A stretch of DNA of 27,814 nt. Source: a virus. Positions 3,054 through 25,146 of the stretch are shown piece by piece; position 1 is the first letter of the stretch, and each line of letters begins with the position of its first letter. The notes under the pieces were generated by a model. It was given only the letters and a program-made list of their open reading frames with translations. It made no database searches and had not been told where the DNA came from. The translations under genes and the position numbers were made by a program. The stretch is taken from IMG/VR virus record IMGVR_UViG_3300047392_000154, positions 1 to 27,814 of that record. One strand, written 5' to 3'.

Positions 3054-5458
3054 TATATTTTTGCTAAATCTGTGATACGTTTATCAGCTTCTTGTTGCGA
3101 TGTCATATCACTTGCGACAACATATGTTTTGAAGATAGGTGCTGCGTTATTGCCACCTCCATTTTCTGTTTGTATTGGTGCTCCACCACCTGCTTGATTA
3201 ATTTGATTTAATAAACCACCAAACATTGCAGTTGAATTTGCATTTATAACTGATTCACCATTTGATAACATAGCAGGAATAGAGTCAGAAACTCCAGTAC
3301 CAGCTCCAGATACGTAACCACCGCTTGCAAATTTACTTGCACTTGGTTTTGCTGCTGCACCTCCACCTCCACCACCAGAAATATTTCCAGTTGGTGTTTG
3401 CACTGACATAATCTTTTTAACGTTCATTAAACCACCAGCGATAGCCACACCCGCAGCAACTGCCGCTAATGCAGGACCAATAATTGGAATACCTACTAAT
3501 GATTTATAGGCTTTAGTTGCTGATTGATACGTATCAATAGTAGTACCAGCGATTGCAATTGCTTTACCAGCTACTGTATCTTGACCTGCTAAAGCAGATG
3601 CATTTTGTAATAATCCACTAATAGCATTCAAGTTAGCTTCTTTAGCTGCAGCAGCTGCATCATCAATGTCTTTTCTGGCTTTTGCATTCTCTGCTAATGC
3701 CATTGTTCTTTGATTTTCATTCTCAAAGGTCATGTTAGTGATGATGGCTTGATTAGCATCGTTTAATGCAATCTTTTCTGCATATGTAGTATCTTCTTGT
3801 TGGATTTGCCATTGATTGAAAGCCAATTGGTCTTCCATATCTTTTTGTTTAAATCCAGCTTCTAGTTCTTTAAATTTAGCATCATTAACTTCTTTAACTG
3901 CAGCAATCTTTTGACCTTTCTCTTGTTCAGATAATTCAGATGAATTAATTTCTGCAATTTGTTTGTTTAACTCTACTTCTAATTCTTGTCTAGCTCTTTC
4001 ACGAAGATTCTCAATACTCATTAAATATGAAGTATTCTTGATCTCTTCAAGTTCCTTTTGGAATGTAGCTTCTTTTTCTTTTTTATTTTCAGCTTGAGTA
4101 TCTAAAAGGTTTTGAGTCTCTTGAGCTTGTGTAGTATCTAATTGCTTTTGTTGCTCATATAAAGATTTTAGGTATCTTTGTTCTTCAATTGACAAATTCT
4201 TTTTCTTGGCATATTTGTCAATCTCAATCTGTAATAAAGCATCAGCATTCTTTTGTTGAATCTCTAATTCTTTTTGAGCTTTTAGATCTGCATCTTTAAT
4301 AGCATCAATCTCAGCTTTTTGCTTTAACTCTAAAATCTTTTTCTCAGACTCTACAGTTTTATCTTGTATTTCTTTTAAATGCTCTGCATATTTCTCTTTT
4401 CTTTCCTTCTCTTTTTCAGCAGCTTTTGCGTTTGCTTCTTTTTGTTTATCAGCCTTTTGTTTATCAAATTGAGCTTGATCAATTAGGGCTTGATTATTTA
4501 AATCTGCAACAGCAGCTTGAAGTTCTGCTAATTTCTTTTTCTTGTCATCATCTAACTCACCATCAATCTGTTGTAATTTTAATAATTGATTGATAGCTGC
4601 TGTTCTAGATGCAACTTCTTCAGCGTTAATCTTTTTCTTTTGTGCAAGTAATTGCTCTTCAGTTGCACCTTGTGCTTCCATTAGGGCTAATCTTCTTTTA
4701 CTTGCAGAAATCATTTTATTTTGAGCAGAACCTACATCATCTAATGCTGAAATAGTTTTCTCAGCGTTATCTCTTGTTTTAGCTGTTGAAGCATCGTCAA
4801 TTAAACCAAATGTTAAAAGAGATGCAAGATCTCTGGCTTTTGCAATAACAAAATCTATAGCTTCACCAAGTGGTGCAAATGCTGCACCAAACTTTTTAAC
4901 TGCTCCAATAGCAACTGTTACACCTAATACTAACGCAGCAAGTGCAGTTACAATTAGACCAATTGGATTGGCAGATAAAATAGCATTGGTAATTAAAGCC
5001 TCTTTACCAAAAAGTCTAGTTGCAACCGCTGCAGCCTTTTCAGTTGTAGTTCTCAATGCCACTGCTGCATCTACTTTTAATTCTGCAATTTGTCTAGCAT
5101 TCAACGCTGCGGTGATTAACCCGTTCGCTGTGGACGAGATCGTTCCTAAAGCTTTAGATTCTACTCCAAAACTTTTTAGAGCTCCTTCAGCAACATCAAA
5201 TGAGCCTGAGATACCACCTGCAAGATCATTGAACTGATCTTTTACTTCTTTGGTTCTTGTATCGTTTTTGAATTCTTTAACAGCAGCTTTGGCTTGTTGA
5301 ATTCTACCTACTATTTCTTCATAGGCAGCACTACCATAATCGGCACTAGCTGCTTCTTTAGTTAAATCTCTAATGGCACCTTGTAATTCAGTCAAAGATT
5401 TGACCGTCTGTTCGACACCATTTACTTTTATCGAGAAACCTACTTCGTTATTTGCCAC
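3053..5458 (-). CDS. Tape measure protein
   Basis: The 801-residue product has a typical tape-measure layout. The N-terminus (about 1-150) has repeated helical Ala/Lys segments. A hydrophobic region lies at about 155-190 (NPIGLIVTALAALVLGVTVA). A very long Lys/Glu/Gln-rich coiled coil spans about 230-620. A second hydrophobic segment lies at about 665-685, then a Gly-rich linker near 700 and a globular tail ending DLAKI. Such proteins fill the tail lumen, set tail length and exit into the cell envelope. The length fits a tail of roughly 120 nm, using the family rule of about 0.15 nm per residue. The only sensible start is GTG at 5456-5458. A hairpin and a TATATTTA motif lie just upstream. No sheath or tube gene is recognisable in the window. 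Confidence 0.85.
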   Translation of the reverse strand: MANNEVGFSIKVNGVEQTVKSLTELQGAIRDLTKEAASADYGSAAYEEIVGRIQQAKAAVKEFKNDTRTKEVKDQFNDLAGGISGSFDVAEGALKSFGVESKALGTISSTANGLITAALNARQIAELKVDAAVALRTTTEKAAAVATRLFGKEALITNAILSANPIGLIVTALAALVLGVTVAIGAVKKFGAAFAPLGEAIDFVIAKARDLASLLTFGLIDDASTAKTRDNAEKTISALDDVGSAQNKMISASKRRLALMEAQGATEEQLLAQKKKINAEEVASRTAAINQLLKLQQIDGELDDDKKKKLAELQAAVADLNNQALIDQAQFDKQKADKQKEANAKAAEKEKERKEKYAEHLKEIQDKTVESEKKILELKQKAEIDAIKDADLKAQKELEIQQKNADALLQIEIDKYAKKKNLSIEEQRYLKSLYEQQKQLDTTQAQETQNLLDTQAENKKEKEATFQKELEEIKNTSYLMSIENLRERARQELEVELNKQIAEINSSELSEQEKGQKIAAVKEVNDAKFKELEAGFKQKDMEDQLAFNQWQIQQEDTTYAEKIALNDANQAIITNMTFENENQRTMALAENAKARKDIDDAAAAAKEANLNAISGLLQNASALAGQDTVAGKAIAIAGTTIDTYQSATKAYKSLVGIPIIGPALAAVAAGVAIAGGLMNVKKIMSVQTPTGNISGGGGGGAAAKPSASKFASGGYVSGAGTGVSDSIPAMLSNGESVINANSTAMFGGLLNQINQAGGGAPIQTENGGGNNAAPIFKTYVVASDMTSQQEADKRITDLAKI

Positions 5459-5482
5459 TTTGTGTAAATCTTTTTATAATTA

Positions 5483-5490
5483 TAAATATA
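5483..5490 (-). promoter_or_regulatory. TATATTTA promoter-like element before tape measure gene
   Basis: TATATTTA on the minus strand ends 24 nt before the GTG start. GTTCAA lies 13 nt further upstream, the same arrangement as before the 14141 gene. It resembles the Bacteroidota -7 element TAnnTTTG. It is a candidate only, since the region is AT-rich. Confidence 0.4.
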
Positions 5491-5519
5491 AAGAAGAGGC
5501 ATTTTGAACACCTCTTCTT
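5491..5519 (-). terminator. Hairpin between the 1792-residue protein and tape measure
   Basis: The arms 5511-5519 and 5491-5499 (AAGAAGAGG/CCTCTTCTT) form a perfect 9-bp stem with an 11-nt loop. The following minus-strand sequence is TTTATATTTAT rather than a clean T-run, so termination may be partial. It overlaps the promoter-like element, which may re-initiate transcription. Confidence 0.55.
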
Positions 5520-5527
5520 CAAGTTTT

Positions 5528-8500
5528 TTAACAGTAATTAATTTCTGTTATAGTATATGGACCTGTTACGTTTAATGTATTTAAATCTATACAACTATAA
5601 CCTATTGGATAATTGTTAGCTCCAGCAGGAATTGTACCGAATATTAAATTACCTATTCCACAAGTTTGTGCGTTCCAGTTTATATCATAACCTGCGTCAT
5701 TTCTAACAAAAACACCTGCACATAATTCTGGTAAAGTACAATCTTCTTCACACAGACCAAATTGATCTACGTAACCATTAGCGCCTACATGCAGTGCAGT
5801 TAAGTTGAATGCATACCAACCTTGAGGCGCTGGTGTAGTACCTGTTGCATCTGCATACAATAAAACATTACCGCTCCAATTAGGGTAAATACCATACACC
5901 GTTTCTAAACTTGGTACACCTTGACCACAAGCTACACATTCATTTGTTGCACTATAAAATACATCAAATGGATATAAAGTATTACAATTACAAGAATTAA
6001 TATCTGTATAACTAATAATAACTCCATTGCCATCTACTTGTGCAATTGTGGCGCCATCAGAATACCAACCAGCTGCAGCAAATGCACTACCAGTAGAGTT
6101 TGCATATAATACAGTAGAAGTAACTAAACTTGTGTTATTACCATAAATTATAGTCGTATATGGTCTTGCACAATATGCAGCACATGGAGATTCATTACTA
6201 TATGAAATATCAAGCTGATATGTGGTTGGTGGTGTTAAATAGTTAACTTCTTCTAAAGTATAAACATAATCTGTATTAGGTGTATTTTCAAATCCAGCAC
6301 CTACATTAAAAGAAGTAATTGGACTACCATCTGTCTTGTTTATTTTAACTAAATTATTAGCTGAGAAACTTCTATAGGTTGCAAATCTACCCCATACGTA
6401 TAAACCACTTGCAACAACTTTTAAATCTATTCTATTAGTCGAAAATGGTGTAAATGGATTAGTTGAATTATTAAATGTAGTATCTAATGTAGCATCAAAG
6501 CCTAATTTAGCAACTCTATGTGAAGTTGTACCTTTATATGATGAGAATTCACCAGCTAAATATAAACCGGTTGAATCAACTTGTATAGTTTCAACGTCTT
6601 GGTTAAAACCATTACCTGCGGCTGTTGTAAATGTAGTATCTAATGAACCATCTAAATTTAAAGCACAAACATTAGATGTAAAAGTTGTGCCTTTCCATGC
6701 ATATGAACTTCCACCAGTACCAGATAAAGTATAATATAATTTATCATTGTATAACGCCATATCTAATACTACGGTATTAAATCCACCAGTAAATCCAGTT
6801 CCTACATTAAATGATGTGTAAATACTACCATTTGAATTTATTGCAATTGCTCTTCTAGCATTCCCAAATGGCGCAGAAATATCATTATAACGAATAAATG
6901 CACCCGCTACAAAAAGTTTTTCATCACCTGATATGGTTTTAAATTGAATAGATGTAATATAATCGTTAAAACCAGTGCCTGTAACAAATGAAGTATCTAA
7001 TGTACCATTTAAATTTAATCTAAATATTCTGCCTATTATTGTAGTTCCATTAAATGTAGAAAATGTACCAGTCACATATAATTTGCCAGTCGGCGACATG
7101 TATAATTTACCTTGTGGAAAATTAGGATCTGTGTTTGCTGATAAACCTGTGCCTACATTTGTGTTAAAGGTAGTGTCTAATGAACCATCTAAATTTAAAC
7201 ATGCAATTCTGTTTGCAATAGAATTACCTTTATATTGATTAAAGATACCTAACACATAAATTTTATCATTATATGTAACTATTGATTCTACTCTAGCTAA
7301 ATTAGGGTTTGTACTATTTGTAAAACCACCAATAACATCAAAACTAGTAGATAAATCTGCTATTGCAGTTAAACCAGCGATATCATTTAATCCAGTTGTA
7401 GTTTTATATTGTGTATATTGACCTCCAACTGCTAAAATTGAAGTTGTAGGTACTACATCTCCTCCAGTTACTAAATTATTAAACTCATATGTGTATATTG
7501 CATTAGTTGTAGAAGGTATTGTTAACGTTACAGTTGCAGGTGTTTGTGCAACTGAATCTTCGAATATGTCTAAATTAATTAAATAATTTGTTTGCATATC
7601 GCCATTAACAGTTGTTGTAGAATTAATAGCTCTCAATCTAACATTTTCTTCACAACTAAATATAACAGACTTTTCTGTATCATCTGGATCTAAAGCTTCA
7701 ATAGTTACTGTAACTACATCTACCCAAGTTGCTCCATTATCAAAAGATTTTTGAACTGTTGTTGAAGTAGTATAACCTGCTTTTTGAGATGATACATTTA
7801 CAGTACCGCTAACAGGTCCAACTAGACAAGTTGGACAACCAGAACAAGTACCAAATGCTGTTATATCACCTACCATACCAGTAACTTGTGCTACCGTAGT
7901 CGAATTAAATTTATACCATCCAGCAGGTGCATATGACGGTGTTTGACCAGCTGGTGGATTTGCACCTGTATTATCTAAATAAAGATTTGTATTTGATGCA
8001 AATGTTGGATTACTACCCCAAACTGTAGTAGTACCATTTGGACAACAACAAGCGTCACATAAAGTACTTGATTTACAAACAGTAAATGGATAATAAACTG
8101 TACAAGTACAATTTGAGCACAAAAAGTTATTAACTACTGAACCATTTGGCGTAACTTGTAAAGCTGTTGTAGCTCCAGTTTGTTTATAGAATCCTGCTGG
8201 ACCTGGTATTGTTAATCCAGAGTTAGTCCAAAATGAACTATTGCCTATAAAATTATTAGGTCCTACTGAGCCATACACTGTAATTAATGGTCCATTATTA
8301 CAACAAACATCACAACCTGTAGTATTTAAATGTACAGTATATGGATATGAAACTGGAGTACAGTTACAAGCTGATGTGTCTTGTACTAGTATTGCACCAT
8401 TAGAATTAACATAGATAGTACCAGACTGATCTGCATAATATCCAGGTGCAGCAATAATACCACCATTAGCATCTTGATATGCAATAGTCGAATCAACTAG

Positions 8501-10906
8501 TGTGGCACCATCTGCATAAATAATAACATTTTGAGATCCTGCGTACTGTGCACAACAATGAGCTGTACATAAATCGGTTGCACTATAACATGTATTAAAT
8601 TGTGTATATGTTGGAGGTGTAACAACTGGTAATGTAATACCAATGTTATTACCTAATTTAATTAATTGTACTCGACAGTTTGATACTTCACCAACTACAT
8701 AATCAGATACAGAGTTAACAAAATACCAAGCGTCTTTAACAAAAATATAGTCATTGAATTTTAAATCCAAGATTTCATTATAGTCTAATGCAAAATTGGC
8801 TTCTACAATTCTAGAATATGGATCGAATGTTACATCATACCATGTTTTCCAGAAAGTATTAAAACAACTAAATGCAGTTTGAGCCTTTGGATTTGTTATA
8901 GCTTGACCAATAGCATTATAATCATATAATGGCAATTCATTTTCCCAGTTTAAATCAAATGTAGTTGATGTTACTGGAAATTCTGAGTATTGACTCATTA
9001 ATGGATATTTATACATAACTTGTTCATTAACAGGCACACCACTTCCATCTTGATCAGTACCTGCGTACCATTCAATTGGTGCATTTTTTTCACCATTCCA
9101 AAAAACCAATCTCAATTTAGGTTGAATAGGTTCTCTTTTACCAACAGAAACTGCGTTAGCTCCAGTACCTTCAGATGCACCATTACCACCAGTATCTTTT
9201 GCAATATGCGGTATTAAAAACAATGCAGCTGCTTCTTCTGAGAAACCAGTACCAGGTTTTAAACCAATACCATCTAAAGGTGTTGGTGCAAATTGATCTT
9301 TATATTCTTTAGTTCCTTTGATTAATTCGTTGGTTGAGTCCAAGTTTAATTGACCAAAAGTTTGTTTGATACCTAATTGGTAGTTGTAGTTTAGATAATC
9401 TGAGTCTTCTTGATCTTTATAGATTTGGAATCTGGCTTGGTCAAAGAATAATGGTTTGATAACCATATCTTTAGACGTGTCAAGTCTAGCAGTCCAATCT
9501 TTTGATCTACCTTCTAGAATCCAATCTTTCCATGGCGTAATCGTAAAATGATTAGCTTGGAATTTAGATGGCACAAAAACTAGTCTATATCTGTTAATAA
9601 TAGACTTCATAAAATCAATCTTTCTAATGTTAGATGGCATAATACCATTAATAGACATTACATTAGGTGCATCTATACATTCAACTGCTGTATTAAAAAA
9701 TTGAATTTGTGTAGAACCAGAATAAACTGGACCAGAAATTCTAAATGTTCTAAATTCAAATTTAACACTTTGATTAGTAATTAAACTTGTATAAATTGAA
9801 GCATCTAAAGATTCTGTATTAACATATTGTGTAAAAGTCCATTGACCTACATCTAAACCAACTACTTGATTTGTTGCGATATCAATTATTTTAGCTTCCC
9901 AACCAATTATAGCATCATCTGGACTTGATCCATATAAATAAACGTCAACTTCACCAGCTGTCATTTTAAATTGATAACTACCATTTGCTGGCGCTGTGTA
10001 AATACCAGAAACTGTTTGACTTGGTGTAAAGTTATTACCTGGATCGTTAATTTCTACTGGAGTTCTCCATGGAAATTGTGCAGCAAGTACATTATATGTT
10101 ACACCTTGATTTTCTGCTCTAAATGTATTTGAGTTATCTAATGTAGCGGAAGCCACGTTATCAGATATAATATATTGATTTGTAAAAAATGAAGAATCTA
10201 AAAATGTAGAGTCATATGTGTAACCAGCTTCTTCAAAGATTTGGTCCCATAAAGCTTTAGCTCTAATTTGAGGTTTCCATTGTGTTAATCTATATGCCTT
10301 TGCAGAAGTTGGTGCTGTTGGATTTGTAAATGAATTATCAAAACCAGCAGATAATGTTGGTATATTAGGTCTATTGTTGTTGTCATATGTGTAACCCCAT
10401 TCAATTAAACCATATCTAACATCACCATTAAATAAACCGCCTTGAGTAGTCCAACTACTTGAGATGTTTTGCCATGTTTTAGAGTGGTTGTATTTGTTTA
10501 GGTTAACTTCATTCAAGAAACCACCGCCAATCTTCGAACCAAAATCTGAAGTAGAACCATAGAAAGTAATTTCGTATTCTACTGAGTTATCTTTTGAGTT
10601 AACGTTAATAGCATTTAATCTGATCGATCCATTTTCAAAAAAGATACCATTGTCAAGAATATACGCATCAGCTTTTATAGATGCATCAAAGTTTATTGAG
10701 TTAACATTAAAGACACCTTCAAAGTATGGACCATTGACAGCAGTATGAGGTACTTTAAACGTACGTGAGAATACAGAATTAGTTGCAGTAGGATCTATGA
10801 TATTAGCCACAGACAAATTTAATTTGATAGGCTCTTCAACTCTCAAATCTAATGCTACGTATTCTCCAGTGTGTTGTTGTTTTGCGTAAAGTTGTGGTTG
10901 CGCCAT
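5528..10906 (-). CDS. Giant tail/baseplate protein with Cys repeats and delta-60 beta-propeller
   Basis: The product has 1792 residues. Residues 1 to about 760 form a tail-hub or baseplate-like region (start MAQPQLYAKQQHTGEYVALD), in the style of long Bacteroidota phage structural proteins. Three Cys-rich repeats of 80-90 residues follow at about 767-1027. Each opens with a C..CC-type cluster, has an IYG/VYG strand and a GWYS/GFYK-like turn, and closes with a CxC or CxxC. Residues about 1030-1140 look Ig-like. Residues about 1186-1550 hold delta-60 repeats (LNLDGSLDTTF recurs), which fold as a beta-propeller. Two more Cys repeats lie at about 1566-1720, and a Cys-bearing tail ends the protein. 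It lies between a tail protein and the tape measure. The likely role is tail-tip architecture plus receptor or glycan binding. No enzymatic site is apparent. Confidence 0.68.
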   Translation of the reverse strand: MAQPQLYAKQQHTGEYVALDLRVEEPIKLNLSVANIIDPTATNSVFSRTFKVPHTAVNGPYFEGVFNVNSINFDASIKADAYILDNGIFFENGSIRLNAINVNSKDNSVEYEITFYGSTSDFGSKIGGGFLNEVNLNKYNHSKTWQNISSSWTTQGGLFNGDVRYGLIEWGYTYDNNNRPNIPTLSAGFDNSFTNPTAPTSAKAYRLTQWKPQIRAKALWDQIFEEAGYTYDSTFLDSSFFTNQYIISDNVASATLDNSNTFRAENQGVTYNVLAAQFPWRTPVEINDPGNNFTPSQTVSGIYTAPANGSYQFKMTAGEVDVYLYGSSPDDAIIGWEAKIIDIATNQVVGLDVGQWTFTQYVNTESLDASIYTSLITNQSVKFEFRTFRISGPVYSGSTQIQFFNTAVECIDAPNVMSINGIMPSNIRKIDFMKSIINRYRLVFVPSKFQANHFTITPWKDWILEGRSKDWTARLDTSKDMVIKPLFFDQARFQIYKDQEDSDYLNYNYQLGIKQTFGQLNLDSTNELIKGTKEYKDQFAPTPLDGIGLKPGTGFSEEAAALFLIPHIAKDTGGNGASEGTGANAVSVGKREPIQPKLRLVFWNGEKNAPIEWYAGTDQDGSGVPVNEQVMYKYPLMSQYSEFPVTSTTFDLNWENELPLYDYNAIGQAITNPKAQTAFSCFNTFWKTWYDVTFDPYSRIVEANFALDYNEILDLKFNDYIFVKDAWYFVNSVSDYVVGEVSNCRVQLIKLGNNIGITLPVVTPPTYTQFNTCYSATDLCTAHCCAQYAGSQNVIIYADGATLVDSTIAYQDANGGIIAAPGYYADQSGTIYVNSNGAILVQDTSACNCTPVSYPYTVHLNTTGCDVCCNNGPLITVYGSVGPNNFIGNSSFWTNSGLTIPGPAGFYKQTGATTALQVTPNGSVVNNFLCSNCTCTVYYPFTVCKSSTLCDACCCPNGTTTVWGSNPTFASNTNLYLDNTGANPPAGQTPSYAPAGWYKFNSTTVAQVTGMVGDITAFGTCSGCPTCLVGPVSGTVNVSSQKAGYTTSTTVQKSFDNGATWVDVVTVTIEALDPDDTEKSVIFSCEENVRLRAINSTTTVNGDMQTNYLINLDIFEDSVAQTPATVTLTIPSTTNAIYTYEFNNLVTGGDVVPTTSILAVGGQYTQYKTTTGLNDIAGLTAIADLSTSFDVIGGFTNSTNPNLARVESIVTYNDKIYVLGIFNQYKGNSIANRIACLNLDGSLDTTFNTNVGTGLSANTDPNFPQGKLYMSPTGKLYVTGTFSTFNGTTIIGRIFRLNLNGTLDTSFVTGTGFNDYITSIQFKTISGDEKLFVAGAFIRYNDISAPFGNARRAIAINSNGSIYTSFNVGTGFTGGFNTVVLDMALYNDKLYYTLSGTGGSSYAWKGTTFTSNVCALNLDGSLDTTFTTAAGNGFNQDVETIQVDSTGLYLAGEFSSYKGTTSHRVAKLGFDATLDTTFNNSTNPFTPFSTNRIDLKVVASGLYVWGRFATYRSFSANNLVKINKTDGSPITSFNVGAGFENTPNTDYVYTLEEVNYLTPPTTYQLDISYSNESPCAAYCARPYTTIIYGNNTSLVTSTVLYANSTGSAFAAAGWYSDGATIAQVDGNGVIISYTDINSCNCNTLYPFDVFYSATNECVACGQGVPSLETVYGIYPNWSGNVLLYADATGTTPAPQGWYAFNLTALHVGANGYVDQFGLCEEDCTLPELCAGVFVRNDAGYDINWNAQTCGIGNLIFGTIPAGANNYPIGYSCIDLNTLNVTGPYTITEINYC

Positions 10907-10907
10907 T

Positions 10908-12389
10908 TTAAATAGTTTGTATTGATTGCGTCATTGCTAATTTAATAGTAAAGGTACCTTGCACAAGTTTAGTTTGTCTAACATTCTTGGTTGTATAACT
11001 TGTATTTGTGACAGTACAGTTGTATGGTATATTATCAGCTTGTGTGTTATTAGGATCTTTGATATATGCCAACACTTGTGGTGATTTAACTAAACCTTCT
11101 AATAGATCTACTTGATCTTGAGTTAACCAGTCAGATTGAATTGAATACATTGTCTCTGCTGATTTAGCATATGGTTTAGTGCCACCGATAACTGTTGCAT
11201 TACCAAAAGGTACCGAGTTTGGTTGAGCTACTGGAACTGGTGTTGCAGCTGAATAATTTAACTGCTCTTGGTTATAGTTACTCTGTGTTGTATTTATACT
11301 TTTTTCTGTGAACATTGTAAAGTTTAAATAATCTCTACCACCTAAAGTATTGAACCAAGAAAGTCTAACTCTTGGGTACAAAGGCGCACAGTATTCTTGA
11401 ATTGTAAATTGTGATTTTAAAGTCGCTGGAGTGCTGAAACCACAACCAGTCGATTGGTTATATCCTTGAATAGAGATAGTCTGACCAGCAGAGACTGGTG
11501 TCCAACCAAGAGCTTGTGCCAGTTTATCAGGACTAGCCAATACATGGACTAAACTATATTTAGCATCTAATGTGGTGCCAATAGTGTTTGTACAGATTTC
11601 TCTTTGACCAAAACCAGAACTAGTTAACATTGGAACATCTGTTGTGTTTACAATTGTACCAGTTGAATCTTTTCTTTCAAATCTAAAACCAAAGATTGCA
11701 TATGGTTGTGAACCAGAGATTGGTGTCCAGTTTAAATAGCTCAAGACGATATTATCAAACTGATAAATGTCTTGATTTAATGGTGCATAATTTAAAGGAT
11801 GTGCTAAACCAATATTGTGGTCATAGTTTGTATTAGCATCGAATGGATTACCACCAAAAATACCAGATTGAAATGTAGATCTCATCTGCCATTGTTGTTC
11901 AAGGTCTGTCATTGATGCACAAAAAACTGTAACTGGTGTAGTTAGATTACCATTTTGTGTATTGCCTGAATAAAGCAAGAATGCTGGTTCACCTGCAGTG
12001 TCTGTTACACCATTGTAAATTTGTGTAATGCCGTTTAAAGTATACTCTTCACCTACTTTAATAAAATACTTTTGTGACATTAGGTTGTTATCGCTATAGA
12101 CTTTTGAGTTATCATAGTCAATCGTTAATTCACCTTGAGTCATTGCAGCGTTAACATTTGATGAATCTATGTAACCTTGTACTAGAGTCGAGATGTCAAT
12201 CATACCAAAGCCCGATGGGTTTGCACGTTGTTTGATTCTTTGGACTGCTGTTGCGTTACCTACTTCATAAATGTCAAAAACATATTTAAAGTCAGTTGAG
12301 TTTACTTTAGAACTAGCAACTGACCACACGATTGGGTTATAGGCTGGTGAAATCCAAACTGGTTTGTAGGGTACTGATGTTATCGCCAT
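10908..12389 (-). CDS. Tail / baseplate structural protein
   Basis: The product has 493 residues. It is rich in Thr, Ser, Asn and aromatic residues, consistent with beta structure. The N-terminus contains VWISPAYNPIVWSV and FKYVFDIYEV, a pattern seen in uncharacterised structural proteins of Bacteroidota siphoviruses. There is no signal peptide and no catalytic motif. It overlaps the preceding gene by 10 nt and ends one base before the start of the 1792-residue protein, so the two are probably translated together and assemble in the same tail-tip structure. An exact role (distal tail protein, hub or adaptor) cannot be assigned from the sequence alone. Confidence 0.55.
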   Translation of the reverse strand: MAITSVPYKPVWISPAYNPIVWSVASSKVNSTDFKYVFDIYEVGNATAVQRIKQRANPSGFGMIDISTLVQGYIDSSNVNAAMTQGELTIDYDNSKVYSDNNLMSQKYFIKVGEEYTLNGITQIYNGVTDTAGEPAFLLYSGNTQNGNLTTPVTVFCASMTDLEQQWQMRSTFQSGIFGGNPFDANTNYDHNIGLAHPLNYAPLNQDIYQFDNIVLSYLNWTPISGSQPYAIFGFRFERKDSTGTIVNTTDVPMLTSSGFGQREICTNTIGTTLDAKYSLVHVLASPDKLAQALGWTPVSAGQTISIQGYNQSTGCGFSTPATLKSQFTIQEYCAPLYPRVRLSWFNTLGGRDYLNFTMFTEKSINTTQSNYNQEQLNYSAATPVPVAQPNSVPFGNATVIGGTKPYAKSAETMYSIQSDWLTQDQVDLLEGLVKSPQVLAYIKDPNNTQADNIPYNCTVTNTSYTTKNVRQTKLVQGTFTIKLAMTQSIQTI

Positions 12390-13195: not shown

Positions 13196-13674
13196 GATAT
13201 GTAATCTTTTATTGTCTCTCTGACTAAACGTTCCATTGAAACATTTAATTTGTCTTGGACTAATTTATTTACTCTACTTTCAAAACCATCCATAGCAGTC
13301 CAGTTTTGTGCTCTAATACCCATTGTACCTTTACTGTAACCCATAAAAGGCAAACCAAAGATACCATTTTGTCTAATAGTATCAAATTCATTATGTCTAG
13401 GACCAGAACCAAAGTTAGTTGCTTGTGCTCTTTTACGTACACCTGCAGGTAAAGCATCTAAATCTATAAATAATTCCCATTGGTTGTCTGCACCTTTTTC
13501 AAATTTAATCATATTAGGTGTCAAAGAACGAGCTAATTTACCTGTTGCATATGGGTTTTGTGGTGTATTACCAGGTCTTGGTACTTGTTGACGTAGACGT
13601 GGAAACATAAATTGACGAATTGAATCGCCAACTTGTTTCATTTGCATGTCTAGTATTTCTTGTATAGTTGCCAT
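13192..13674 (-). CDS. HK97 gp10-like head-tail / tail completion protein
   Basis: The product has 160 residues and is basic. It has an N-terminal helix, a segment with NPYATGKLARSL (about 41-52) and a second with GFESRVNKLVQDKL (about 133-146), followed by a helical end. The pattern of a helix, then a tGkLarSl-like turn, beta strands and a C-terminal helix matches gp10-like minor tail proteins that join the tail to the head. Starts and stops are coupled on both sides (TAATG upstream, ATGA downstream). Position in the gene order supports the role more than sequence does. Confidence 0.5.
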   Translation of the reverse strand: MATIQEILDMQMKQVGDSIRQFMFPRLRQQVPRPGNTPQNPYATGKLARSLTPNMIKFEKGADNQWELFIDLDALPAGVRKRAQATNFGSGPRHNEFDTIRQNGIFGLPFMGYSKGTMGIRAQNWTAMDGFESRVNKLVQDKLNVSMERLVRETIKDYIS

Positions 13675-14141
13675 TACGATACAGGATTATTACAATTATC
13701 TAAAGGTGATATAGTTTCTATTTGCAATTGACAAGTCCAACCACAAGTTGAGTTTTTATAACCTTCAAAAAATGGTGTTGCCACTGCAGGTAAATTTATG
13801 TTATATCGAAAATCTTTCCAAGTAGTTAATCTATATTTAGCTAAAATATCTCGCAAGATTTCCATTGTGTTTGAGTGTGTACGCTCTTCAAGATCTAATG
13901 AAGATTTAGCCAAGTCCATAACTATTAAGTCGAAGTCGTATGTTGTCGAACCTTCAGTAATAGTGGCTGGTTGTGGTATTAACATCACATATGGATATTT
14001 GGCTGAAACCTGTTGGTCATCAGTTGGAATTTCTACCATGGATTGAGGTCCACAACGAAAAGTCTTGATAGCTGGGTGGTCATTGCATATTTGTCTCAAT
14101 GATTCTACCACATTTCTATATGTTGAACTATAAACTGCCAT
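13674..14141 (-). CDS. Tail terminator/completion-like protein
   Basis: The product has 155 residues with a mixed alpha/beta pattern. It has an N-terminal helix (YRNVVESLRQICNDHPAIKTF), strands around KYPYVMLIPQ (about 68-77) and TTYDFDLIVMDL (about 86-97), and a helix at about 102-121. The order helix, strand, strand, helix resembles tail-terminator folds such as lambda gpU or HK97 gp10-neighbour proteins. It is the first gene after the element downstream of the terminase gene and opens the tail block. Its ATG has a TATATTTA motif 25 nt upstream. No defining motif is visible. Confidence 0.45.
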   Translation of the reverse strand: MAVYSSTYRNVVESLRQICNDHPAIKTFRCGPQSMVEIPTDDQQVSAKYPYVMLIPQPATITEGSTTYDFDLIVMDLAKSSLDLEERTHSNTMEILRDILAKYRLTTWKDFRYNINLPAVATPFFEGYKNSTCGWTCQLQIETISPLDNCNNPVS

Positions 14142-14166
14142 TCTTTTTAAATTTGTTTGTTATTAA

Positions 14167-14174
14167 TAAATATA
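14167..14174 (-). promoter_or_regulatory. TATATTTA promoter-like element opening the tail block
   Basis: TATATTTA on the minus strand ends 25 nt before the ATG at 14141, with GTTCAA 13 nt further upstream, as before the tape measure gene. It sits directly after a terminator hairpin, a sensible place to restart transcription for tail genes. Confidence 0.42.
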
Positions 14175-14212
14175 TCGTTTTTAGAAATTGAACGGTTACA
14201 GCGACAATAAAT

Positions 14213-14248: not shown

Positions 14249-14366
14249 GGTTTATAATTCTTTTAGAATTATTTACCTGGTCCCTAGAGGACCAACCTTT
14301 AGCGCTTGAGGGACCAACCTTTAGCGCTTGAGGGACCAACCTTTAGCGCTCGAGGGACCAACCTTT
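14248..14366. repeat. Iteron-like element, copy A (3.5 units of 22 bp plus palindromes)
   Basis: Plus-strand units of GGACCAACCTTTAGCGCTTGAG begin at 14289, 14311 and 14333 (the third has CTCGAG), with a partial unit at 14355-14366. Beside them lie GGTCC/GGACC arms (14279-14283, 14289-14293) and an AT-rich palindrome (ATAATTCT at 14254-14261, AGAATTAT at 14265-14272) inside an outer GGT/ACC pair. Bases 14248-14322 are identical to 22138-22212. The terminase stop codon overlaps the last partial unit. Iterons beside an AT-rich dyad suggest a replication origin; a packaging site next to the terminase gene is an alternative. Confidence 0.85.
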
Positions 14367-15591
14367 AATCAATTGGACTACTTGCTCTACGACCATTTGC
14401 AAAGGTGTATTGTCCACCTTTTGGTTTTGAAAGTGCATAACGTATAGCATCTATTGCGTGGTTGTGTTCGTCAATAGGTTTGTCAGAACCTGGTTTCCAT
14501 GAATACAAGAATGCTTCATCGTGTAAGTCTGAACTATTAGGATGCATGTAAACTTCATACTCTTTGAGTGTGTTAATACCAGCTTGAATTGAATCTGGTC
14601 CTTTGTATGCTGGTTTAACATTAAAACCAGCTCTTTTTAGATCTTCAATAGATTTAGGTTCTGCAGAGTCTGCAATTATTTGATCTCGTGAAGTAATACC
14701 AAGCTTTTTCATTTGATCCGCCAAGTCTGCATTCGTGAGTCCTGGCGAGTAGATCAATTGCTTTAAATAAAGTTTGTTATTTTTCTTTTTAACCTCGACC
14801 AAAGATGCTGGATCATTAGAAAACCCAAAATCCAGACCGTATACTGTATCGTATTCACCTTGTGGGTCTGGTGTACCAACTTGCCAGTTCTCGAAGATTC
14901 TACCTACGATACCATCTAACCATTTGCCTTCAATATGGTGTGCATAGTATTCTGGATCTAAATCTTTCATACGTTCCCACTCTGCAATCTTTTTAGGATC
15001 TAGGTTTTCTTCGTTGTCTTTGTATGTGGTGTGAATAAACTCATGATCGTCAAACCACTTTGGGTTAGGTTGACCATCAATATAAAATCTTTTATGAATC
15101 CAATGTCTCTTTGAAGTAGGGTTAAAGAGGATAAAGACCTTTCTTTCAGAGCCTTTTGATCTAAATGAGTCATTTAATTTGATAAATTCTTCTTCTGATG
15201 GTAACTCTGTAGCTTCATCTATTAATAAATGGGTTACACCTGCTAAACCTTTACCTTTTGCAGTCATTGTACCATCTTGTAGTTTCATAGCATGTGTAAT
15301 AACCATATTGCCATTTAGGACATTGGTCATTTCATCGCCTTCGATCTTGATAAATCTTTTAATGTTCCAAGACTCAGCTAAATCAAGAATATCTCTATAG
15401 ATGGATGATTTGATTGACTTTTGGGTATAACGAGATACAACACCTCTGAAATACTCTTCGCCCATTAATCTGATTAAAAAGAATGCCGCGGCTTGCGTTG
15501 ACTTGCCTGATCCACGTCCACCAGAAATCAGATAATATGTTTTATCTGAGTGAAACATTGGTGCATATGGGTCTAGGATTTTAAAGTCCAT
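14365..15591 (-). CDS. terL: Terminase large subunit
   Basis: The 408-residue product is the DNA-packaging motor and nuclease. The ATPase has Walker A SGGRGSGKST (23-32) and Walker B HLLIDEATE (121-129), with the coupling region LFNPTS near 155-160. The C-terminal RNase-H-like nuclease shows Asp254 (YGLDFGFSNDPAS), Asp308 (IIADSAEPKS) and Asp381 (HAIDAIRYAL), the expected acidic triad. Length and motifs fit the PBSX/SPP1 type. The ATG overlaps the previous gene by 11 nt. The stop codon lies within the first unit (transcription sense) of the iteron-like element. The TerS-like gene lies about 1.4 kb upstream, separated by a sigma-like gene and small proteins. Confidence 0.96.
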   Translation of the reverse strand: MDFKILDPYAPMFHSDKTYYLISGGRGSGKSTQAAAFFLIRLMGEEYFRGVVSRYTQKSIKSSIYRDILDLAESWNIKRFIKIEGDEMTNVLNGNMVITHAMKLQDGTMTAKGKGLAGVTHLLIDEATELPSEEEFIKLNDSFRSKGSERKVFILFNPTSKRHWIHKRFYIDGQPNPKWFDDHEFIHTTYKDNEENLDPKKIAEWERMKDLDPEYYAHHIEGKWLDGIVGRIFENWQVGTPDPQGEYDTVYGLDFGFSNDPASLVEVKKKNNKLYLKQLIYSPGLTNADLADQMKKLGITSRDQIIADSAEPKSIEDLKRAGFNVKPAYKGPDSIQAGINTLKEYEVYMHPNSSDLHDEAFLYSWKPGSDKPIDEHNHAIDAIRYALSKPKGGQYTFANGRRASSPID

Positions 15592-16478: not shown

Positions 16479-16949
16479 TTATAGGTTTTGTTTGATGTGC
16501 TTGCGTACGCGTTTAATAGTTAGTGCGATTGATGTTCTGGGAATTCCCGTTTCTTTGCTGAGTGTTGAATAGTTATGATCACCTTCTGCAAAGAGTCTAA
16601 ATAATTCTCGATCATACCAAGGCAAAGAGTCTATTAAATAATTAACTTTATCTATGTCTAGTTTTGATGTTTCACTCTCTGGTTTATCATGACACTCTAA
16701 CTCTGCATGTTGTTTTACAAATTGACGATGAAATGGACCTGTTTGACTTCGCCATTGAGTCATGAGTATTCTAATCAAGTAAAATCGTGCACCACCAGAG
16801 TCTATAATATCTTGAAGATTTTTTTTAGTAGATAACTCTTCGATACCATAGTGCAGTAGATCTAATGCAAGATCATGATTACCTGTGATTTTATTAGCTG
16901 CTTCAACTAATGCATCGTAATCATTAGCAAGATATTGGTTAAAATTCAA
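16479..16949 (-). CDS. Sigma-factor-like HTH protein (TTG start)
   Basis: The product has 156 residues. Residues about 11-75 form helices resembling sigma region 2 (HDLALDLLHYGIEELS, then FYLIRILMTQWRS). Residues about 102-154 form a helix-turn-helix like region 4: LPWYDRELFRLFAEGDHNYS, then KETGIPRTSIALTIKRVRKHI. Such short sigma-like proteins occur in Bacteroidota phages and may redirect host polymerase to late promoters; a packaging-related DNA-binding role is an alternative. No ATG precedes the domain in frame: a TAG lies four codons upstream and TTG at 16947-16949 is the best start. A terminator hairpin lies just upstream, so the promoter must lie close. Confidence 0.6.
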   Translation of the reverse strand: MNFNQYLANDYDALVEAANKITGNHDLALDLLHYGIEELSTKKNLQDIIDSGGARFYLIRILMTQWRSQTGPFHRQFVKQHAELECHDKPESETSKLDIDKVNYLIDSLPWYDRELFRLFAEGDHNYSTLSKETGIPRTSIALTIKRVRKHIKQNL

Positions 16950-20706: not shown

Positions 20707-22011
20707 TTATAATCCAAATTGTACATCGTTTACTTCTAGTCCAGGACGCTGAGTCAATATATGATCTGCAGTCCAAACAAAGCTCATACGATCTCCTTTT
20801 CTCAGTTTACCATACTTTTGTTTTTGTACAGTTAAAGTATAGGTACCTAATTGAGTATTTTTATCTAATTGTTTTGGTATATCGCCTGATGGATACTGTA
20901 ATTGTACAGCCCAACAATAGTTAACGTGGTGTGTAGCTTCATATGCACCTGCAACATTGTGTAAATCTGGTGTTTGATTTGTATTAATTAGTCTATCTGA
21001 AGCCTCTCTATTTAATTGCATTGAAGTAATAACAATTTTATTTTGACTCATAGCTAATGATTTTAATTCTTGAAAGACTTTAGCTACTCTTTCCCATTCT
21101 GCTTTTAAATTACCACCAACATCTACTAGTTTAGCATAGTCAATTATAATAGCATCAAAACCAATTTCTGCTTTAGCTTCTTCTGTTTTTATTAGCTCAT
21201 TTAAAACCTCTATTTTAACACCAGCCCATTCTGCTACTATAAATTCACCATAATTATTGGCTTTTGCTATCTCTGCATATTTTTGACCTACTGTTGAGTA
21301 ACCATTAGCGATCTCTAACGCATACTCATCTTCTGACAAGCCTAAAGTCATTTGGTGTATTCTTCTAATGGTATCTTGGTGTGGCTCTTCCTGAGCCAAG
21401 AAAAGTACGTTCTGATGAGCTTTAATTAGTAACCATGACATCCAAGTTTTTAAAATGGTTTTACCTCCATTGGTCATAGTTATAAAAGCATAAAGTACTT
21501 TCTTTTTTAGAGGTACATTATTTTCTTTAAACCAATCAACTGCTAAATTGACTTCAGTCTCTTCAAGTCTTTGTAATGTCTGCCAATCTTTAATGTTAAC
21601 TGGTTTTGGCCACACAGAAGTGTCTTTCTTTAATTGTTCTAGTCTTCTTTCAAGGGCTTGAATAGTTTTTACTTCCTCTTCAGGTAAAGTACAAATCTGT
21701 TGCATGATTTTTCTAGAAGCTCTAGTTCTAGCCGCTTGTAGTTGTATCTGTTGACTAGTTAGGTCTAATTTAGAGGCTTTATTAACTTGTTTAAAAGACT
21801 CTTTAAAATGCGGTTGATCTACTTCTTTTAAAGTCTCTGTAATGGATCTATAAACTGATTCAAATGTAGGGGTAAATCCTGCCTCTTTTTGCTTTTTAAT
21901 TTCCTGTAAATGTATATGTTGATATGGATCTAATGCTTCTATAGGTATTTGATCTAACAACTCATAATTAGTGTAGGCTGCTTTGAGTAATTCTTCTGGT
22001 TTTAATGTCAT
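20707..22011 (-). CDS. DnaB-like replicative helicase
   Basis: The 434-residue product unwinds DNA at the fork. Residues 1-140 are helical, like a DnaB N-terminal and linker region. The RecA-like core has a Walker A-like ITMTNGGKT (177-185), QEEP (207-210) in the place of the catalytic Glu motif, Walker B IIIDYAKL (288-295) and TSMQLNRE (329-336), which matches the DnaB QLsR arm. The first Gly of the P-loop is Thr178, an unusual change, but the GKT part is intact. The gene follows the winged-helix gene after 17 nt and ends 42 nt before the HNH gene. It is the helicase of a compact primase-initiator-helicase module. Confidence 0.82.
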   Translation of the reverse strand: MTLKPEELLKAAYTNYELLDQIPIEALDPYQHIHLQEIKKQKEAGFTPTFESVYRSITETLKEVDQPHFKESFKQVNKASKLDLTSQQIQLQAARTRASRKIMQQICTLPEEEVKTIQALERRLEQLKKDTSVWPKPVNIKDWQTLQRLEETEVNLAVDWFKENNVPLKKKVLYAFITMTNGGKTILKTWMSWLLIKAHQNVLFLAQEEPHQDTIRRIHQMTLGLSEDEYALEIANGYSTVGQKYAEIAKANNYGEFIVAEWAGVKIEVLNELIKTEEAKAEIGFDAIIIDYAKLVDVGGNLKAEWERVAKVFQELKSLAMSQNKIVITSMQLNREASDRLINTNQTPDLHNVAGAYEATHHVNYCWAVQLQYPSGDIPKQLDKNTQLGTYTLTVQKQKYGKLRKGDRMSFVWTADHILTQRPGLEVNDVQFGL

Positions 22012-22028
22012 ATTTTTATTTATTATTT

Positions 22029-22517
22029 TTATTTGTTTCCTTGTTTTAGTTTAATTATCTCTTCAGTAGACAAGGGTTTATAGGTGTTTAGGGTAGAGAT
22101 TGAAGAAGAGTGTGATGTGTTAACATCATCACTATTCTGGTTTATAATTCTTTTAGAATTATTTACCTGGTCCCTAGAGGACCAACCTTTAGCGCTTGAG
22201 GGACCAACCTTTTGCGCTCGAGGGACCAACCTTTTTGCTACATATTTCCTAGGAATGTTACCGTTTCGTTGATAATCTCTGACTACTGCGATTAGATTTT
22301 TCTCTACTAAATAGTCTAAAGCAGATTTTAATGTCCCTCTTTTTATGTTCCAATCTTCTGCAAATTGTTTTACATATAAATCCATACCATCTGCATGTTT
22401 AGTAAAATGTATAATAGCAGATAATGCAACCCACGCTGCAGTTCTGTGACTACGTTGCAAATCTTGCAATTCTTTTAATTCCAAAAGTTTATGATCAATA
22501 GTATAATTTACGTACAT
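22029..22517 (-). CDS. Winged-helix replication initiator-like protein containing an internal iteron array
   Basis: The product has 162 residues. Residues about 25-95 form a winged helix-turn-helix: RTAAWVALSAIIHFTKHADG, MDLYVKQFAEDWNIKRGTLK and ALDYLVEKNLIAVV. Residues about 95-127 are encoded by the 22-bp repeat element and are basic and irregular (KRLVPRAQKVGPSSAKGW). The rest is Ser/Asn-rich with a short C-terminal helix (TEEIIKLKQGNK). Position between primase and helicase and the split of DNA-binding domain plus linker plus short helicase-contact-like tail recall lambda O or DnaD-type initiators. The internal repeats could be the initiator's own binding site. No sequence-level family match is claimed. 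Confidence 0.68.
   Translation of the reverse strand: MYVNYTIDHKLLELKELQDLQRSHRTAAWVALSAIIHFTKHADGMDLYVKQFAEDWNIKRGTLKSALDYLVEKNLIAVVRDYQRNGNIPRKYVAKRLVPRAQKVGPSSAKGWSSRDQVNNSKRIINQNSDDVNTSHSSSISTLNTYKPLSTEEIIKLKQGNK
22112..22132. repeat. Hairpin flanking copy B (counterpart of the terminator at copy A)
   Basis: GTGATG (22112-22117) pairs with CATCAC (22127-22132). An alternative inner pairing GATGT/ACATC also forms. It is in the same position relative to copy B as the terminator at 14216-14248 is to copy A, but has no T-run and is translated here. Confidence 0.55.
22138..22234. repeat. Iteron-like element, copy B (2.5 units, inside the winged-helix gene)
   Basis: The plus-strand order is AT-rich palindrome (ATAATTCT 22144-22151, AGAATTAT 22155-22162), GGTCC/GGACC arms, then units at 22179-22200 and 22201-22222 and a partial unit at 22223-22234. 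Bases 22138-22212 are identical to 14248-14322. The 22-bp spacing shifts frame each time: the repeats are read as RLVPRA, KVGPSS and KGWSS, so the encoded peptides differ while the DNA is conserved. Confidence 0.85.
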
Positions 22518-22523
22518 ATATTT

Positions 22524-23438
22524 TTATTTTTTATTTGTTTGACACCATGTCCAACCTTTAGTAATTGGTATAGTAATATCTTGTTTACCCGCTGCAGAGG
22601 TCATATACTGTGCACCCCATTCTATCATAGCATATGAGATGGTTTGATTTATGTCTAAACCTACTTTATTAGCATTAACACCTAATTGAAATAACCACAT
22701 ATGACCACCAGTTTGCCAAGAAGTTGTATACATGCCATGTGATTTTTCAGTCCATTTACGAGCTATCTCGAATTTTTTAGTGCTTTCCATATTTGGATTT
22801 GTTAAGACAAACGGTTTAGGTGGTTTTGGTTTCTCAATCTTTTTACCATTGGCTTTTAACCATTGACCTAACTCTTGCATACTAACACGCGAACGAACTT
22901 CAATTAACTCTTGTTCTACATAGTGCACATCAATGACTTGACCTTCATCATTTGTAACTTGGATTTCTCTCAAACCACCAGGTAATCTAGATAATTGTGG
23001 TATATGTTTAGTTCTTGGGTCAATTGGTAAACCTTTTTGGACTAAAATTTCTCTGATAGTCTTCCATAAAGTAGGTTGTATATCTTTTGGTATAGGTCTA
23101 TCAAGTCTGACAATCACATGGACAGACTTTGTACCACTCCAGGTCATAGTACTATAGGGTAAACCCGTAGCTCTGACCATACTCACTTGTGTGTCTCTGG
23201 GGATAATCTTGCCATTATCTGTTTTATCCATCTCAAACAACATCGCATATACGTGCTTGACATTCTGTTCGTTTCTTTTAGTTTCTAATGGATTGATACA
23301 GAATTTTTCAGCTGTTGAGAATAACATATCAGGCCAAACTGGTTCAGCTTTACTAGCCCAAGCATCTATTTTACCCCAAGCTGTTTTATGATCTGCATCA
23401 AATAAACATTCTAAAAACTGTTTTTTACTTGGTTTCAT
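22524..23438 (-). CDS. AEP-type primase
   Basis: The product has 304 residues. The core shows hallmark AEP patches: YAMLFEMD (64-71), where Glu69 and Asp71 take the place of the usual DxD; SGTKSVHVIV (101-110) with His107; and DPRTKHIPQLSRLPGG (140-155). Residues about 225-295 hold a helical C-terminal region (IARKWTEKSHGMY...TGGHMWLF...IEWGA) that resembles PriCT-like modules after such primases. It would make primers for the phage fork. Its ATG overlaps the previous stop as ATGA and it is 6 nt from the winged-helix gene, so the three replication genes form one unit. Confidence 0.75.
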   Translation of the reverse strand: MKPSKKQFLECLFDADHKTAWGKIDAWASKAEPVWPDMLFSTAEKFCINPLETKRNEQNVKHVYAMLFEMDKTDNGKIIPRDTQVSMVRATGLPYSTMTWSGTKSVHVIVRLDRPIPKDIQPTLWKTIREILVQKGLPIDPRTKHIPQLSRLPGGLREIQVTNDEGQVIDVHYVEQELIEVRSRVSMQELGQWLKANGKKIEKPKPPKPFVLTNPNMESTKKFEIARKWTEKSHGMYTTSWQTGGHMWLFQLGVNANKVGLDINQTISYAMIEWGAQYMTSAAGKQDITIPITKGWTWCQTNKK

Positions 23439-24540: not shown

Positions 24541-25146
24541 TTATGCTTCTGGAGTATACTGCATCCAAGCACCATTTACTGGCACAAAATCAAGTTCTTC
24601 ATAGAATTTACGCAAAGCTACAGTTTTAGCTATAAAGTCAAAATCACTAATAGCATCGGTTGCACATGGTAAAACTTTTAAAGTCATCTGAGCAGCATCA
24701 CATTCGTCCAAGATAATATTCATAATCTTGGTACCAAGACCTTGGTTTCTGGCTTCTTTGGCAATTTTAATAGTGTGTAATTGAGTAGTCGTTTCATTCT
24801 CTGCAATAAATTCTAATACTACAGGTCCGATTTCTGTCATAAATCTGTAATTACCTATATTAGGGTAATATTCTGCATAGTGTGTAGCTACATTTTTAAT
24901 AGTGTTAACAAACATACCATTTTTGTAAAACCACGTACATTTTTTAGCTTCTGCGTTTAGTAATTGAGACACTTGGTCAGCAACATTTTTTACTAAAGTA
25001 GCCGTAGTTAATTGACCAGGTAAGTCAAAACACTCGTAAAACTCTTCGTTGGTTTGCAATAGACTTGGTACAGTTTCATACTTTTGCATTTTAGTGTTAA
25101 ACTGGTTGATCTTGTTGATCATTTTACTTGAATTGAAAGTTTTCAT
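24541..25146 (-). CDS. GNAT-family N-acetyltransferase
   Basis: The product has 201 residues. The acetyl-CoA-binding motif A is seen at about 123-149: a beta strand (LHTIKIA), then ARNQGLGTKIMNIILDE with the R133..G136..G138 pyrophosphate loop. The C-terminal motif B region is ALRKFYEELDFVPVNGAWMQY (177-197), the usual FYxxxGF-like end of the fold with Leu-Asp in place of Gly. The first 100 residues are less typical and may contact a substrate. It stands alone between two terminators with its own promoter-like motif. It may acetylate a host or phage protein or small molecule; the target cannot be told. Confidence 0.85.
   Translation of the reverse strand: MKTFNSSKMINKINQFNTKMQKYETVPSLLQTNEEFYECFDLPGQLTTATLVKNVADQVSQLLNAEAKKCTWFYKNGMFVNTIKNVATHYAEYYPNIGNYRFMTEIGPVVLEFIAENETTTQLHTIKIAKEARNQGLGTKIMNIILDECDAAQMTLKVLPCATDAISDFDFIAKTVALRKFYEELDFVPVNGAWMQYTPEA

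Follow-up and report, generated by a model that had tools for sequence, protein, structure and literature searches.

A putative replication origin within a winged-helix initiator gene of an uncultured phage and a second copy of the element behind terL

The DNA analysed here (the window) is the 27.8-kb record of an uncultured phage. A short tandem repeat lies inside a gene of its replication module, and a second copy of the same repeat is found behind the gene for the large terminase subunit (terL). This arrangement raises the question of whether the intragenic repeat (copy B) serves as a replication origin recognized by the product of the gene that contains it, and which function, if any, is to be assigned to the distant copy (copy A). 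The relevant features are listed in Table 1.

Table 1. Coordinates of the replication module and of the two copies of the repeat element in the window.
Feature	Position	Strand	Basis or remark
Predicted winged-helix (WH) replication initiator gene, 162 aa	22029-22517	-	DnaD-like/O-like PHROGs and structure model
Primase gene of the replication module	22524-23438	-	phrog_2597, E 2e-10
DnaB-like replicative helicase gene	20707-22011	-	phrog_19, E 1e-21; PF03796
Copy B iterons, 3 x 22 bp, AAAGGTTGGTCC core	22169-22234 (22213-22234, 22191-22212, 22169-22190)	-	Encode residues 95-117
Copy B AT-rich perfect hairpin, ATAATTCT-TTT-AGAATTAT	22144-22162	.	Folding
Copy B second hairpin (AGAATAGTGATGATGTTAACACATCACACTCTTCT), TTAAC loop	22104-22138	-	Folding
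Copy A iterons, 4 x 22 bp, intergenic	14279-14366	-	First unit touches terL stop codon (14365-14367)
Copy A AT-rich hairpin	14254-14272	.	Identical to that of copy B
Copy A second hairpin (AAAAATAGGTGTTGCTAACGCACCACTATTTTT), CTAAC loop	14215-14248	-	
Terminase large subunit gene (terL)	14365-15591	-	Upstream neighbour of copy A
Late gene, probable neck/head-completion	13674-14141	-	Downstream of copy A

The winged-helix gene and the repeat within it

The best profile match of the gene was phrog_186 ('DnaD-like helicase loader', 5e-8), and the O-like families phrog_678 and phrog_345 matched more weakly (1.7e-5 and 6e-4). The structure of the protein was predicted with AlphaFold, using the best of five models from one shallow run (a second, shallower run was poor). 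The model comprised a WH at residues ~9-94, a disordered, iteron-encoded linker and a C-terminal helix at residues 151-160, with pLDDT values below 50 for residues 98-148. The weak profile matches and the best shallow model together suggest that the gene product adopts a winged-helix fold. Foldseek searches with this model returned generic wHTH regulators only, with weak E-values. The helicase showed a distant match only to G40P of SPP1 (3bgw; E 0.0076), and sequence searches with the primase detected no similarity to any solved primase.

A preliminary description, made from the letters of the window, had reported a 22-bp repeat inside the WH gene between the primase and helicase genes, read out of frame and identical to copy A over 75 bp. 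All three statements were confirmed. Copy B consists of three units (minus-strand unit AAAGGTTGGTCCC...) in the 3' half of the open reading frame, each translated in a different frame (KRLVPRAQ / KVGPSSA / KGWSS). The 60 nt past the array have an AT content of 73% (89th percentile of the contig; 68-80% in relatives). Copies A and B show 97% identity over 100 nt, including an exact match of 75 nt (22138-22212), and no third copy of the repeat was found elsewhere in the window. Copy A had been used as a yardstick for copy B; the near-identity stood, and this role is refined in that copy A proves to be a complete duplicate of the origin-like element.

The strand also folds well as RNA (z -3.9 and -6.2), with no real match in Rfam. 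Since folding as DNA yields the same hairpins and the arrangement matches that of origins, an RNA role is possible but not needed.

Conservation of the array in other initiator genes

Related modules were sought by a pattern scan with the unit frame AAAGGTNNNTCC at ~22-bp spacing, which recovered the same primase-WH-helicase module in the distant phages L055/L056 and L051. Their WH proteins are 49% (over 109 aa) and 42% (over 141 aa) identical to that of the window, the helicases 44-45%, and the primase of L055 36%. The L055 and L051 modules carry the array in the same place together with the AT hairpin. The arrays of these modules differ from that of the window in the central unit bases (ATR, ACG, compared with TGG in the window), which are common to most or all units of each array. 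The perfect 8-bp AT-rich hairpin follows the array in window copies A and B, in L029, in L051 and in both copies of L055, with 8/8 pairs in every copy and two compensatory pairs in which both sides have changed; its covariation score was reached by 29/500 shuffles, with small counts from the three intact module members found. Most copies then show a second hairpin, with a YTAAC loop and a stem whose sequence varies among copies; the automatic fold did not return this hairpin for L051. In L029, a similar array and the following hairpins are kept as DNA with no WH domain in front. This phage contains two different arrays (447-596 and 957-1113): its initiator holds an in-frame 21-bp array of its own, and the window-type array stands without a WH gene. 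Two AAAGGTCGGTCC units 23 bp apart precede the start of a probable tail gene in L049 (1814-1848) and L052 (4254-4288), and may be due to chance in these GC-rich phages. No match was obtained by exact-pattern scans for the window array in viral contigs, by blastn of copy A or tblastn of the WH protein against phage records, or by helicase scans of viral and genome contigs.

Several of the phages with 91-94% identical TerL use different WH initiators, and all those that could be read (L014, L015, L017, L025, L029 and L030) have their own distinct array right behind the WH domain, with a spacing of mostly 21-24 bp. The strongest 19-26-bp self-similarity of the locus falls in the initiator gene in 6/6 of these cases, and the product of length fractions for the array position is 4e-10 over seven loci. 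An AT-rich tract adjoins the array in most WH initiators examined; in L014 and L015, an AT-rich hairpin and then a second hairpin lie behind the array, with sequences unlike those of the window. L014 and L015 are 85-87% identical up to the initiator start codon and again right after the last iteron, with no homology across the WH plus array. Between L025 and L030, similarity likewise resumes (92%) ~50 nt past the array. Because the breaks in homology span both elements, the WH domain and the array have moved together in these two pairs of relatives, as would be expected if one binds the other. L033 and L035, which have no WH initiator near the HNH gene, gave weak 24- and 26-bp tandem matches and were not counted as a clean negative control.

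This distribution bears on the possibility that the repeat stems from a MITE- or RPE-like element, small, palindromic and mobile, which by chance inserted in frame in the WH gene. The element is hairpin-rich, occurs twice in the window and is missing at the site of copy A in close relatives, all of which would suit such an origin. However, the window holds no further copies, the many copies at unrelated sites typical of such elements were not seen, and the core pattern in viral and genome contigs matched no further contig except that of L029. The array also occupies the same position behind the WH domain in the orthologs and in other, sequence-unrelated WH initiators, and a mobile element is accordingly very improbable.

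The earlier proposal that the DNA is kept rather than the peptide was assessed by synonymous recoding. Briefly, the peptide was recoded at the codon usage of the contig (3000 recodings), and the lag identity was scored. The window array had a lag identity of 0.93, compared with a mean of 0.57 for the recodings, and since none of them (0/3000) reached the observed value, the 22-bp repeat is not explained by the peptide. Likewise, 0/3000 recodings each matched the observed repeat identity for L055, L051, L015 and L017. Weaker results in the same direction were obtained for L014 (18/3000), L025 (3/3000) and the in-frame arrays of L029 (38/3000) and L030 (4/3000); lambda O, included as a control, gave 4/3000. 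In the three orthologs, codons for the same residue were identical at 7/10, 8/10 and 9/13 positions of the array, as against 16/41, 23/39 and 26/56 in the WH domain, counts that are small and derive from ortholog pairs that are not independent. The proposal thus held, with the refinement that conservation of the DNA unit also leaves the encoded peptide partly conserved. A conserved peptide with a drifted repeat, the counter-example named in the preliminary description, was sought and not seen: the repeat is intact in orthologs with 40-49% WH identity.

The residues common to the three orthologs (K-R-x-V-P, K-V-x-P and K-G) would also fit a protein repeat conserved for its peptide and not for its DNA. 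Such a reading is hardly credible in view of the out-of-frame period, the failure of any synonymous recoding to attain the observed identity, the higher share of identical same-residue codons in the array compared with the WH domain, and the occurrence of the array in noncoding DNA (copy A, the second copy of L055, and L029).

The second copy behind terL

Phages with 91-94% identical TerL mostly have just ~50 nt behind terL, and copy A is therefore an addition at this site. A role as packaging site was considered and not favoured, since copy A is absent from these relatives. The second hairpin of copy A could also terminate terL transcripts. A second array is present in L055 at 11093-11158, between terL and the neck/tail genes, in a position matching that of copy A and likewise upstream of a homolog of the window's probable neck gene; it is flanked by divergent gene blocks. 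L048, L053 and L057 share this stretch and appear to be the same species as L055. The interval that separates terL from the second array of L055 holds a block of small minus-strand genes (7870-10993), one of them homologous to window 24541-25146. The per-unit identity between copies is 0.84 and 0.85 within a genome vs 0.54-0.57 between the window and L055. Concerted or initiator-driven evolution would fit this pattern, as would separate duplications that entered the same junction. The second copy is not universal, as it is absent from the 24.9-kb contig of L051, whose terL-neck junction is occupied by a GIY-YIG gene, and was not found for the arrays of the six other initiators in their sequences examined.

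The terL-neck junction is an insertion hotspot, with GIY-YIG genes in L011 (3840-4380) and L051 (1773-2189), another open reading frame in L020 (2167-2912) and the origin-like copies in the window and L055. In L051 (reverse complement, 4350-5601), the terL frame is split into two open reading frames (4350-4556 and 4714-5601).

Copy A might be a non-functional or selfish duplicate in the hotspot behind terL. The ~50 nt found at its site in close relatives and the open reading frames that fill the junction in L011, L020 and L051 would agree with this explanation, yet the distantly related L055 has a second copy at the same junction. Moreover, the iterons and the AT hairpin of copies A and B are (nearly) identical, while the second hairpin has diverged and still pairs, and we regard a functionless duplicate as unlikely.

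A conserved ATATTTATWAATA-like motif lies ahead of the neck gene in the window (14155-14185) and in most relatives (L008-L026), and is possibly a late promoter. These phages also encode a sigma-70 region 4-like protein (window 16479-16949).

Alternatively, copy A, and perhaps copy B, could serve mainly as an operator, at which the iteron-bound initiator regulates its own operon as well as late transcription and thereby couples the late genes to replication, with no replication starting at copy A. The location of the second copy directly upstream of neck/tail genes in the window and L055, its placement between divergent gene blocks in L055 and the conserved promoter-like stretch just downstream of copy A argue for this possibility. 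However, the AT-rich and second hairpins are kept in both copies, beyond the needs of an operator, and a plain operator need not sit within a coding region. An operator function is possible but rather doubtful.

Proposed mechanism and relation to known origins

Our preferred reading is that copy B is very probably a replication origin bound by the WH protein. The lambda-like intragenic origin put forward in the preliminary description is well supported by the comparison, with individual arrays behind WH domains, an AT-rich tract in most cases, and arrays that travel with the WH domain. GC skew gave no origin signal.

Protein binding, melting and all replication activity are proposed here from the sequence. 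The WH protein would bind the three iterons of copy B, which would be presented on one face of the helix because they are spaced about two helical turns apart. The adjoining AT-rich hairpin region would then melt, and the DnaB-like helicase and the primase, encoded on either side of the WH gene, would be recruited. The iterons would code for the disordered linker that joins the DNA-binding domain to the short C-terminal helix, where the peptide may tolerate a sequence dictated by the DNA. Copy A would represent a second complete origin-like element and is probably bound by the same protein. It would most likely act late and be either a second origin or a fork barrier that aids the change from circle to concatemer replication, a role suggested for SPP1 oriR; the chances that copy A acts in replication, as opposed to transcription or no role, are about even. 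Less likely still, and speculative, is a self-contained two-origin replicon with two active copies. In such a replicon, the late copy, next to the packaging gene, would serve as a late origin or a programmed fork barrier, the copies would evolve in concert with the initiator, and the phage primase would use the YTAAC-loop hairpin for strand initiation.

In lambda, iterons lie inside initiator gene O behind the DNA-binding domain, with an AT-rich side and an inverted repeat beyond (PMC7466680). In the lambda sequence, the iterons were found at residues 117-145 of O with a spacing of 20-24 bp, in the order iterons, AT-rich tract and inverted repeat around GAATTC. The window shares with lambda the direct repeats within the initiator gene behind the DNA-binding domain and the adjoining AT-rich tract. 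It differs in that the sequences are unrelated, the initiator gene is flanked by primase and helicase genes and followed by a DnaB-like helicase gene instead of a P-type loader gene, a second complete copy exists elsewhere, and the AT-rich tract itself is a perfect hairpin.

The closest precedent for the two-copy layout is SPP1, with oriL within gene 38 and oriR in the late region; oriR has been suggested to halt forks and thereby set off concatemer replication (PMC6316719, PMC3485210). As compared from the papers, both phages have direct repeats plus an AT-rich region in two distant copies, of which one lies in the initiator gene and the other in an intergenic stretch of the late region, a likeness of layout. 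The copies are 7.9 kb apart in the window, compared with about 12-13 kb in SPP1, and the gene order is primase-WH-helicase and not G38P-G39P-G40P, with no G39P-type loader seen.

The oriV of RSF1010/IncQ plasmids comprises iterons of about 20 bp, an AT-rich stretch and hairpins, and these plasmids encode their own primase, helicase and initiator. The window shares all of these features, whereas the plasmid oriV lies outside the initiator gene; the window primase also lacks detectable similarity to a solved primase.

Intragenic origins in initiator genes, as in lambda, and the two-copy arrangement of SPP1 are thus already known. New to us are the sequences, the phage group, the exchange of WH-iteron cassettes and the conserved double hairpin; a search of the open-access literature gave no match for this phage group. 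The findings would bring a group of uncultured phages with unrelated sequences under the lambda/SPP1 style of origin, and in this group the DNA-binding domain of the initiator and its iterons appear to be exchanged as one cassette. They also add what seems to be an independent example of origin duplication in which one copy lies among late genes, so that the second copy as a trigger of concatemer replication becomes testable outside SPP1. In practical terms, arrays right behind WH domains may allow origins to be predicted in metagenomic phages.
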